A stretch of 37,309 bases of DNA from Candidatus Saccharimonadota bacterium (GTDB lineage Bacteria; Patescibacteriota; Saccharimonadia; Saccharimonadales; Saccharimonadaceae): the NCBI GenBank assembly GCA_017509895.1, contig JAFWOH010000005.1:1-37309 (forward strand). Direction: 5' to 3'. Each line of letters starts with the position of its first letter. Positions within the stretch are counted from its first letter, which is position 1. A program made the translations under genes and the position numbers. The notes under the pieces were generated by a model. It was given only the letters and a program-made list of their open reading frames with translations, was not told the origin of the DNA and did not search any database. This document shows positions 26,083 through 31,266 of the stretch, in pieces.

Positions 26083-26466
26083 ATGGCTACTGATATTAAA
26101 AAGTTGGCTGAGGAATTGGTAAAACTTACCGTTCTCGAGGTTAACGAACTTAAAAATACTCTTAAAGATGAATATGGCATCGAGCCAGCTGCGGCTGCCG
26201 TTGCTATGGCTGCTCCGGCTGCTGGTGGCGAGGCCGCTGCTGCCGATGAAGGCAAAACTGAGTTTGATGTTGTCTTAAAGGACGCTGGCGCTCAGAAAAT
26301 CGCTGTGATTAAGGCGGTGAAAGAGGCTACCGGCCTCGGTCTTGGCGAAGCCAAGGCGATCGTTGATGGTGCTCCGGCTACCGTCAAGGAGAAAGTTGCT
26401 AAGGCGGATGCTGAGGCGATGAAGAAAGCGCTAGAGGAAGCCGGCGCAACTGTAGAATTGGCCTAA
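26083..26466 (+). CDS. rplL: 50S ribosomal protein L7/L12
   Basis: 127 residues. N-terminal dimer helices ([20 protein letters not shown]), an Ala/Gly hinge at 43-60, and the factor-binding C-domain [20 protein letters not shown] and [13 protein letters not shown]-type region (here [13 protein letters not shown]). It recruits translation GTPases to the ribosome. AAAGGA lies ten bases before the ATG. Its stop codon is the first arm of a triple palindrome array that forms the 3' UTR before a strong terminator at 26809-26842. Confidence 0.97.
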
Positions 26467-26548
26467 AGCGTCCATCTCGGCATTTTTCCGAGCTCGCTCG
26501 ATATATAATCGCGCTTCGCTCGGAGAAAATACCAATCTGAACGCTTTA
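26464..26548 (-). repeat. Family-1 imperfect palindrome, copy B
   Basis: Closing arms TAAAGCG (26464-26470) and CGCTTTA (26542-26548). Motif strand (minus) reads GCGTTCAGATTGGTATTTT and AAAAATGCCGAGATGGACGC, with the AGAT/AGAT pair. The tip CGAGCGAAGCGCG is shared with copy E. It starts on the rplL stop codon. Confidence 0.8.
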
Positions 26549-26569
26549 TGCTCAATTCTACGAACTTGC

Positions 26570-26678
26570 CTAATTAGGGCTAAAATCGCCTATCTCGGCA
26601 GTTTTCCTCGAGCGACCATCCAAAGATGCGTCGCTCTCGGAGAAACTACCAATCTAGACGATTTTATCTCCTAATTAG
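26570..26678 (-). repeat. Family-1 imperfect palindrome, copy C
   Basis: Core arms TAAAATCG (26581-26588) and CGATTTTA (26659-26666), flanked on both sides by CTAATTAG. On the minus strand AAAATCGTCTAGATTGGTAG pairs with CTGCCGAGATAGGCGATTTT. The tip stem is CTCCGAGAGCGAC/GTCGCTCGAGG. Same tandem AGAT/AGAT. Confidence 0.78.
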
Positions 26679-26776
26679 AACTAGAGCATCCATCTTGACA
26701 TTTTTCGCTCCTCGCTGGCCAAGTAGGCCCGCTTCGGAGCGAGAAAATGCCAATCTGAACGCTCTAAACAAGTTCT
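26677..26776 (-). repeat. Family-1 imperfect palindrome, copy D
   Basis: Arms AGAACTAGAGC and GCTCTA-AACA-AGTTCT. On the minus strand GAGCGTTCAGATTGGCATTTT pairs with AAAATGTCAAGATGGATGCTC. The tip GAAGCGGGCC...GGCC is shared with copy A. Third of three copies between rplL and the terminator. Confidence 0.78.
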
Positions 26777-26808: not shown

Positions 26809-26842
26809 ATCAAAAATCCCCCGAGCTTGGGGGATTTTTGAT
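26809..26842. terminator. Strong bidirectional terminator after rplJL
   Basis: A perfect 14-bp stem ATCAAAAATCCCCC/GGGGGATTTTTGAT with loop GAGCTT and T-runs on both strands. It places copies B-D inside the rplJL transcript and isolates the pemK promoter downstream. Confidence 0.9.
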
Positions 26843-26864: not shown

Positions 26865-26893
26865 TTTACAATTTTAACATATTTTGATAAAAT
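26865..26893 (+). promoter_or_regulatory. Promoter of the PemK-like gene
   Basis: TTTACA (26865-26870), 17 bp, TAAAAT (26888-26893). The leader is about 16 nt with GGAG before the ATG. Confidence 0.65.
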
Positions 26894-26916: not shown

Positions 26917-27318
26917 ATGAAAAAAGACTATAAAAAATGGATGCCTATAAAGGCTAAAATAAACAATACAAGGACAAAATCTTTGCCAGTGATTAGGGCG
27001 GGACAGATTTATTGGGTGAGTGTTGGACAGAATATTGGCTATGAGGAAGACGGTAAAAGCGATTTATTTACTCGGCCCGCTCTAGTTATAAAGGTATTCG
27101 GTCAGGGAGGATTATTTTTATCGGTGCCGCTTTCAACGACAGATAAAACAGGGTTATTTTATTATACTCTACATCTAAGAGGCGAAATTAGTACAGTGCT
27201 TTTGACTCAGATTCATAGTTATGATGTAGCAAGGATTGCTGATGCTAGACCAATTGGGCGGATAAGCGGGCAAGATTTGGCGAGGATTAGGGAGCGAATA
27301 AAATATTTAGTGGGATAG
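26917..27318 (+). CDS. PemK/MazF-family endoribonuclease-like protein, no antitoxin visible
   Basis: A 133-residue protein. From residue 26, IRAGQIYWVSVGQNIGYEED starts the PemK/MazF barrel (usual G.I..V..), then FTRPALVIK, SVPLSTTDKTG, the TVLLTQIHSYDVARI strand and the DLARIRERI helix. The family cleaves mRNA. The N-terminal 25 residues are an extra Lys-rich stretch. No antitoxin-sized gene precedes it; the upstream DNA is a palindrome array and terminator, and a hairpin array follows. It may be an orphan, a domesticated RNase, or have a distant partner. It is inserted between rplL and rplA. Promoter and GGAG are its own. Confidence 0.8.
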   Translation: MKKDYKKWMPIKAKINNTRTKSLPVIRAGQIYWVSVGQNIGYEEDGKSDLFTRPALVIKVFGQGGLFLSVPLSTTDKTGLFYYTLHLRGEISTVLLTQIHSYDVARIADARPIGRISGQDLARIRERIKYLVG

Positions 27319-27324
27319 AGAAAA

Positions 27325-27495
27325 CTCCTACTTTTTAGGTAGGAGATTCTGGTTTGTGCCCCCTAGATGAATCTAGGTTCGGTAGAGATGTTCTACTTAG
27401 CATCCTTGTAGATGCTGCGACCTTTAGTCGCACCTCTTTCGAGGGGTAGTCTACATATAGGCTACGCTTTTGTAATTTTATTTTCGCATATGCGA
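27325..27495. other. Array of eight consecutive short hairpins
   Basis: Stems, by eye: CTCCTAC/GTAGGAG (27325-27345), CCTAGA/TCTAGG (27362-27377), GTAGA/TCTAC (27382-27396), AGCATC/GATGCT (27399-27416), GCGAC/GTCGC (27417-27431), CCTC/GAGG (27433-27444), GTAGTCTA/TAGGCTAC (27446-27465) and TCGC/GCGA (27484-27495). A seven-T run follows on plus. Loops are 4-7 nt, and hairpins 3-7 are separated by 0-2 nt. This fills the gap between two converging genes, so it can be in the 3' UTR of either. The first and last may act as terminators; the rest is unexplained. Confidence 0.7.
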
Positions 27496-27515
27496 CTTTT
27501 TTTGTCAACAATTTT

Positions 27516-30342: not shown

Positions 30343-31266
30343 ATGAGTAAATTTGATGAGCAGTATTTAGATCTTTGCGAAAGGATTCTTCGTGATGGCG
30401 AAAAGGTGGTGAATTATACCCATAAGACAGAGAGTTCTAATACCTCGATGCCGAATCATCTGGCGCAGGCCAAGACAGGGAGTGCGACGATTCGTCTGCC
30501 GCATCAAATTTTAGAGTTTGATCTTTCCGAGGAATTTCCGGTCCTCACGACGAAGTTTACGGTTTTTAAGGCGGCGGTACTTGAGATGCTGTGGATTTGG
30601 CAGGTACAGAGTAATGATGTCAGATGGCTACAGGAGCGGGGGGTGAAGATTTGGAATGAATGGGAGATAGATGAAAATGGTGATTATATGGGTAAGCATT
30701 TTGGGAAGGAATTTGCGCATACGATTGGGACGGCATATGGCTGGATTGTGAATAAATATCATCTGACGCAGGATTTGATCGAGACTTTAAAGAACGACCC
30801 CGGGAACCGGCGGATGGTTTTGTCGCTTTGGCAGAATGAATATCTCCCGACGGCGGCGTTGCCGAGCTGCGTCTGGAGCAATGAGTGGAATATCGTAAAC
30901 GGACGAGTGAATTTGCTCGTCAATTCCCGCTCGACAGATGTGCCGCTAGGGTTGCCATTTAATATCACGCAATATGCGACTTTCCTCTGTATGATTGCGC
31001 ATTGTCTAAGTCTCAAGCCGGGAAAGATGACTTTTATTACGAACGATGCACATATTTATGAAAATCAGGTGGAGGGGATTCGCGAGCAACTCCGGCGAAG
31101 GGATGAAAAATTGGCCCGTGATGGGAAGTTATTTGATGCGCCAAAGCTCTGGCTAAATCCGGAGGTGCGTGATTTCTTTAAATTTGATAGTTCTCGCGAG
31201 CTTCGGGATATTAAACTGCTTGATTATGAACATCAGGGGAAACTAAAAATGGAGATTTCGGCATGA
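30343..31266 (+). CDS. thyA: Thymidylate synthase ThyA
   Basis: 307 residues. It methylates dUMP to dTMP using methylene-tetrahydrofolate. Marks: LEFDLSEEFPVLTTKFTVFK, the GTAYGWI loop, NRRMVLSLWQ, the catalytic Cys in LPSCVWSNEWNI, and RSTDVPLGLPFNITQYA. Position +1 after the catalytic Cys is Val, not the His of E. coli. I believe this variant occurs in some Firmicute-type enzymes, so activity is still expected. First gene of a tight operon: its stop overlaps the folA start (ATGA). Confidence 0.95.
   Translation: MSKFDEQYLDLCERILRDGEKVVNYTHKTESSNTSMPNHLAQAKTGSATIRLPHQILEFDLSEEFPVLTTKFTVFKAAVLEMLWIWQVQSNDVRWLQERGVKIWNEWEIDENGDYMGKHFGKEFAHTIGTAYGWIVNKYHLTQDLIETLKNDPGNRRMVLSLWQNEYLPTAALPSCVWSNEWNIVNGRVNLLVNSRSTDVPLGLPFNITQYATFLCMIAHCLSLKPGKMTFITNDAHIYENQVEGIREQLRRRDEKLARDGKLFDAPKLWLNPEVRDFFKFDSSRELRDIKLLDYEHQGKLKMEISA

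Follow-up and report, generated by a model that had tools for sequence, protein, structure and literature searches.

The window, as the whole stretch of 37,309 nt analysed here is called, is contig JAFWOH010000005.1 of assembly GCA_017509895.1, assigned to a Candidatus Saccharimonadota bacterium. It encodes a PemK-type protein on its plus strand; 6 nt after the stop codon of this gene a run of small hairpins begins, just beyond which rplA ends on the minus strand. The features relevant to this region are as follows.

26865..26893, plus strand: candidate pemK promoter TTTACA-17-TAAAAT, by consensus match only
26917..27318, plus strand: pemK-like toxin gene, 133 aa and stop (stop codon 27316-27318), matching PF02452 at E 3.4e-10
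27321..27473, minus strand: predicted convergent hairpin RNA (antitoxin RNA) of ~150 nt with 7 small hairpins, its ends predicted
27325..27345, minus strand: terminal hairpin adjoining the pemK stop, then TTTTCTCT; terminator-like, in the position of hairpin 2 of the relatives
27362..27377, no strand assigned: hairpin CCTAGA-TGAA-TCTAGG, from folding
27382..27396, no strand assigned: hairpin GTAGA-GATGT-TCTAC, from folding
27400..27415, no strand assigned: hairpin GCATC-CTTGTA-GATGC, from folding
27416..27432, no strand assigned: hairpin TGCGAC-CTTTA-GTCGCA, from folding
27433..27444, no strand assigned: hairpin CCTC-TTTC-GAGG, from folding
27446..27465, no strand assigned: hairpin GTAGTCTA-CATA-TAGGCTAC, from folding
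27471..27474, minus strand: UACA at +6 to +9 after the -10, the offset seen in the family
27480..27485, minus strand: -10 hexamer GAAAAT, weak (4/6), with a 17-nt spacer and a TG extension, from the sequence
27484..27495, no strand assigned: palindrome TCGCATATGCGA inside the promoter spacer, from the sequence
27503..27508, minus strand: -35 hexamer TTGACA of the convergent RNA, in the same place as in relatives

The initial annotation had described eight stem-loops here, with stems unrelated in sequence and therefore no tandem repeat, and had judged a chance run of such density unlikely. The run is indeed present, and the stems are unrelated; seven of the eight belong to the array, while the eighth, a palindrome at 27484-27495, lies within the spacer of a promoter on the minus strand and would not be part of the RNA. 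When base pairs may span no more than 24 nt, the folding energy of 27325-27495 is -57.2 kcal/mol for the plus strand and -51.3 kcal/mol for the minus strand (shuffled means -24.8 and -18.7), corresponding to z scores of -7.4 and -7.6, and 0 of 2000 dinucleotide shuffles reach either value; in unrestricted folding z is -5.1 and -6.5. Folding energy thus lies far outside the shuffled range on both strands, and the array is the strongest two-strand local folding within the window. In a folding scan of the whole assembly (723,673 bases, 0.72 Mb) the other high scorers consist of one to three larger stems, none of them a run of small ones. Neither folding nor G-U pair counts tell the plus from the minus strand. 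No Rfam family matches above its gathering score at the array or at the loci of 16 relatives, and DNA homologues of the array were found neither in 174 congeneric genomes (beyond AT-rich scraps) nor among phages nor by exact 32-mer search of genome contigs; a 30-nt match on a Campylobacter plasmid (E 0.2), which adjoins a TnpA/TnpB element, was dismissed as chance.

The protein encoded next to the array scores 40.5 bits against PF02452, above the curated cut-off of 23.1, a family that is also matched by 14 of 14 relatives examined; sequence searches connect it to MazF/PemK and not to ToxN. A single-sequence structure model reached a pLDDT of only 35, and an AlphaFold2 model built on a 34-sequence alignment (pLDDT 82) was used instead. 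Its best structural match is the MazF-RNA complex of Bacillus subtilis (4mdx; Z 14.8, rmsd 2.0 over 104 residues), and no ToxN-like fold is among the structural matches listed. The RP and PLS/T motifs are conserved; the protein is a predicted endoribonuclease. No convincing gene for a protein antitoxin lies beside pemK; the short open reading frames upstream look like chance ones.

The gap between rplL and pemK holds three tandem imperfect palindromes of ~90-100 bp each (26463-26766) and, at 26809-26842, a long hairpin, CAAAAATCCCCCGAGCTTGGGGGATTTTTG, which is presumably the terminator of the rplJL operon. Repeats followed by a terminator and a toxin gene could be read as a type III system; this reading was rejected because the repeat unit is dispersed, with 13 matches across the genome; it is probably REP- or MITE-like.

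What gives the array a direction is its surroundings on the minus strand, where TTGACA (27508-27503), GAAAAT (27485-27480) and UACA (27474-27471) are followed by the seven hairpins, the last being the terminator-like one at the pemK stop. The same arrangement is seen beside relatives of this pemK. When the 3′ flanks of pemK genes from the genus are aligned by their stop codons, a variable hairpin, a short linker and a CGGG-loop-CCCG hairpin precede a TTGACA-17-TATAAT promoter on the opposite strand; both within the genus and in other phyla the promoter lies 50-160 nt past the stop and points back at pemK. Of 78 distinct loci, 72% have a promoter score of at least 10.5 (of 12.5) on the opposite strand; the sense strand attains this in 9%, shuffles in 1.4%, and rplA 3′ flanks in 0 of 26 cases. 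Among 61 named loci across phyla the figures are 54% for the opposite and 3% for the sense strand. Further, 53 of 100 loci have UA[CU]A at 6-9 nt beyond the -10, compared with at most 4% at neighbouring offsets. For every 200 nt of one strand in the genome from which the window comes, 0.0023 occurrences of a promoter combined with UA[CU]A are expected. The cleavage site of B. subtilis MazF is UACAU, and the UA[CU]A start could be a bait for the toxin, an idea akin to the reservoir of PemK cleavage sites suggested in the initial annotation; it could equally reflect a preference in transcription start.

These observations bear on one alternative, namely that the array is a structured 3′ untranslated region or terminator of pemK on the plus strand, or a two-way terminator serving pemK and rplA, and that there is no separate RNA. 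The array begins close behind the pemK stop, carries terminator-like hairpins on both strands and is not assigned to either strand by its folding, all of which such a reading would accommodate. It leaves unexplained, however, why the opposite strand of relatives carries a promoter in the corresponding position with UACA at the same offset, why this arrangement is absent from ordinary PemK genes, and why the RNA genes survive the decay of pemK (see below); moreover, one hairpin suffices for a terminator, and most rplA relatives have just one. A multi-stem terminator or a mere 3′ untranslated region, both of them among the readings of the initial annotation, is thus regarded as improbable. The annotation had placed the array between converging pemK and rplA, and both genes do converge on it; the proximity of rplA is incidental, since in the congeneric rplA 3′ regions (loci L003-L031) the array is absent and the genes mostly end in an ordinary terminator.

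In the relatives the usual form of the RNA is much shorter, with two hairpins in ~50 nt, and is not a repeat array. In an alignment of 24 flanks from the genus, made by sequence alone, compensatory changes are found at 9 of 12 pairs. The covariance model (R1) matched at 136 sites, spread over 72 of 174 congeneric genomes. A canonical RNA lies within 200 nt of the pemK 3′ end for 89 of 109 congeneric pemK matches, convergent in 89 of 89 cases, and RNA and pemK co-occur by genome with p = 3e-17 (174 congeneric genomes). Among 87 distinct RNA sequences 96.3% of the pairs are standard, and 184 double compensations are counted against 42 in shuffles (0/500) and at most 36 in slid controls; the underlying alignment, having been fitted to the model, is biased in its favour, and the alignment by sequence alone gives the same picture. 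Covariation was counted within this genus-level set because a single alignment of all RNA types across phyla misaligned the stems. Among the 156 genera of the order, the R1 form was found only in two genera of one family.

Beyond the genus the toxin and the layout extend much further. The named relatives of PemK share the motif G[EQK]N[IV]GxE and come from Saccharibacteria, Nomurabacteria and other Patescibacteria as well as from Campylobacterota, including Sulfurimonas, Sulfurovum, Sulfurospirillum, Sulfuricurvum and Arcobacter. Behind the promoter these loci have a small hairpin (CGGC..GCCG, GGCUUCGGCC or UCCUUCGGGA) and, at the stop, a second one; the 3′ end of the RNA is uncertain, since outside the genus many relatives have a last hairpin lacking a U-tract. 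Copies on plasmids and phages occur in Nitratiruptor, Helicobacter suis, Campylobacter jejuni pVir and CJIE4 prophages, and the flanks in pVir and H. suis hold three or more hairpins. In the Campylobacter phages CJIE4-3 and PC10 (L325, L329) pemK is situated between the genes for the terminase large subunit and the portal protein, with a TATAAT-containing gap behind it. On many Campylobacter plasmids a pemK of the same subfamily is apparently broken by frameshift (three tblastn pieces; L328, a C. jejuni plasmid). No description of the cross-phylum RNA family was found in the literature searched. The pairs of toxin and shorter RNA are present in many gut, groundwater and marine bacteria, in which the toxin is annotated as partnerless.

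How the array in the window relates to this family is the point at which the case is most exposed. Searching it with the R1 model gave no match up to E 10, and this, together with the missing DNA homologue, is the weakest link; membership therefore rests on position, promoter, UACA, terminal hairpin and the clade of the toxin. Homologues of the array near pemK or rplA in relatives had been proposed as a check: the sequence itself is not conserved, while the architecture is kept at the same place beside pemK. In the closest named relatives of the window PemK, at 44-45% identity, the RNAs have two hairpins and measure 56-73 nt, and the window PemK clades (support 100/95) with those of L083, L063 and L176, whose RNAs are non-canonical and 78, 120 and 147 nt long. 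On the PemK tree, which has 138 columns, 78 rows and long branches, RNA class requires 5 changes against 16.4 in shuffles. As the closest named relatives carry two-hairpin RNAs and the clade-mates longer non-canonical ones, the array looks like an expansion of the two-hairpin RNA. Two-hairpin RNAs are found in tandem, 90-200 nt apart, at L193, L194 and L195 (in L194 behind one pemK); tandem copies are a possible route to longer arrays. The missing matches to model and DNA would be expected if the array had arisen by chance, or were a degenerate remnant, and had nothing to do with the RNAs of the relatives; the folding excess (z about -7.5 on both strands), the promoter and UACA in place and the clade shared with other non-canonical RNAs make this quite improbable.

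If the convergent RNA serves the toxin, its distribution should be compared with that of protein antitoxins. A PF02452 search across the order returned 21 other loci, comprising 19 ordinary PemK/MazF genes and L343 and L352, which resemble the solitary subfamily in sequence and have promoter scores of 10.5 and 10. All 19 ordinary genes have an abutting upstream small open reading frame, recognised by size and position and not by family search, and none of the 19 has a convergent promoter scoring at least 10.5. We infer that in the solitary PemK subfamily the convergent RNA probably replaces the protein antitoxin.

The RNA is also found where the toxin is not: 47 R1 matches have no pemK hit. 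The genome of the window itself contains four canonical two-hairpin RNAs, C5 (L096, 7554-7613), C28 (L119, 12511-12566), C18 (L109, 7783-7839) and C40 (L131, 6893-6949). Among the pemK-less RNAs examined, those of C5 and C28 and of L162, L163, L171 and L175 are located beside debris of pemK, and those of C18 and C40 and of L154, L159, L167 and L173 stand alone; the solitary RNA of L173 is directly behind a predicted Phd/VapC-like pair. A TATAAT-like -10 is kept in 13 of 13 RNAs checked that have no intact pemK, with -35 matches of varying quality. These cases show retention and are no measure of selection, because the search finds intact RNAs only. RNA genes that outlive their toxin would, if this is correct, provide ultra-small bacteria with cheap immunity to addiction by mobile copies. 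Hairpins without pemK, and a pemK that is patchy in distribution and moves between phyla, plasmids and phages, could also be expected of an element acting as DNA, for instance a site of recombination or one end of a pemK-bearing mobile cassette. The hairpins are, however, on one side of the gene only, as a rule with a promoter of 17-nt spacing, and their loops and stems vary with compensation, and such an element is therefore considered very improbable, the least likely of the explanations weighed here.

The explanation we consider best, with a probability of roughly 0.65, is that the array encodes a small RNA, transcribed convergently, which acts as antitoxin to the solitary PemK-type endoribonuclease encoded beside it. 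The promoter downstream of pemK would drive transcription of an RNA of ~150 nt towards pemK; the transcript would end at the terminator-like hairpin at the pemK stop codon and fold as a string of seven small hairpins, an expanded version of the ~50-nt two-hairpin RNA predicted in the equivalent position where Saccharibacteria, other Patescibacteria and Campylobacterota carry pemK genes of this subfamily. The structured RNA proposed by the initial annotation thus gains support, and its guess of a connection with pemK was well placed. Read directly from sequence are the array, the place of its promoter, the covarying structure of the short form and its association with this subfamily, the lack of a gene for a partner protein and the RNA genes that persist after the toxin has decayed; transcription of the RNA and neutralisation of the toxin we infer from its position, its mutual exclusion with protein antitoxins and its retention.

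As to how it might do so, the folded RNA may bind PemK itself and block it as a decoy, possibly through the UA[CU]A 5′ end, a mechanism to which we give about even odds. The runner-up is an antisense (type I-like) antitoxin, which by pairing with pemK mRNA at the 3′ end would cause that mRNA to decay, in the manner described for the 3′-overlapping pairs of B. subtilis. The layout invites this comparison: the RNA is convergent, meets the pemK 3′ end and ends at the stop, its own 3′ end is not fixed, and a run-on pemK mRNA would be fully complementary to it. Pairing alone, on the other hand, needs neither a conserved fold nor a UA[CU]A start nor compensatory changes across toxins that are ~30-40% identical, and it would not keep RNA genes whose pemK is gone; in addition, cognate pairing outside the overlap was absent when the pemK 5′ untranslated region and coding sequence were searched (p 0.38 and 0.34). 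Binding to the toxin protein is favoured for these reasons, that is, since fold and 5′ end are conserved across divergent toxins and since the RNAs survive where there is no gene to pair with. Structural conservation and toxin-less copies suggest such binding, and the antisense mechanism appears rather unlikely, although less so than the other alternatives.

Among known systems, type III (ToxIN, CptIN, TenpIN) is comparable in that an endoribonuclease of MazF-like fold is held by a folded RNA (PMC5086642); there, the RNA is a repeat array upstream of the toxin gene, in one operon with it and separated from it by a terminator. In the window the RNA would come from downstream, convergently and from its own promoter, and its unrelated stems contain no direct repeats. 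As in type I systems with 3′-overlapping RNAs, the predicted RNA converges on the toxin gene and would meet it at its 3′ end; the window RNA is on the strand opposite to pemK and abuts its stop, and overlap with the toxin mRNA would depend on the transcript ends. In the type I pairs TxpA/RatA and BsrG/SR4 of B. subtilis the toxins are small hydrophobic peptides and the mechanism is antisense pairing, whereas the window encodes a 133-aa protein of a MazF-fold endoribonuclease family, and the RNA fold is conserved. With type II (pemIK/mazEF) the toxin family PF02452 and the MazF fold are shared, whereas no protein antitoxin gene abuts members of the subfamily, unlike the ordinary members of the order. 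The definitions of types I, II and III thus each fail in part for the window system. An opposite-strand RNA at a mazF locus is also known in E. coli, the antisense RNA aMEF of mazEF; this one raises mazEF expression, is made from a non-canonical promoter and accompanies a protein antitoxin (PMC8749433), and in these respects differs.

In Campylobacter the comparison comes closest to experiment. For the CJIE4 prophage, MazF was reported to be expressed and no MazE gene was seen (PMC3995785). The pVir plasmid of strain 81-176 encodes a PemK of the present subfamily for which no antitoxin is annotated (WP_011117588.1; gene at 30630-31034); behind the gene come a TATAAT promoter in convergent orientation and, within 87 nt, three hairpins. 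CjrA of C. jejuni pVir is an experimentally validated RNA antitoxin, reported as type I (Shen et al. 2016, doi 10.1111/mmi.13431, via PMC7826846), and dRNA-seq with Northern blotting has revealed small RNAs on pVir (Dugar et al. 2013, PMC3656092). CjrA is likened here to the convergent hairpin RNA candidate by its location on the same plasmid, and its toxin may be this PemK or another; if it is this PemK, the report as type I would favour antisense pairing. With this proviso, cjrA may be a relative of the RNA antitoxin of the window.

A convergent RNA in the place of the protein antitoxin would explain the partnerless PemK proteins of many Patescibacteria and Campylobacterota, Campylobacter prophages included, and the family would be searchable by promoter and hairpins. 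It raises the question whether a MazF-type toxin can be held by a small, non-repetitive RNA. More tentatively, toxins of PemK/MazF fold in two phyla could be controlled by a separately transcribed, convergent hairpin RNA acting on the protein, which would amount to a widespread class not yet named, neither antisense nor repeat RNA; the window would then represent its extreme form, whose seven hairpins might each engage the toxin.
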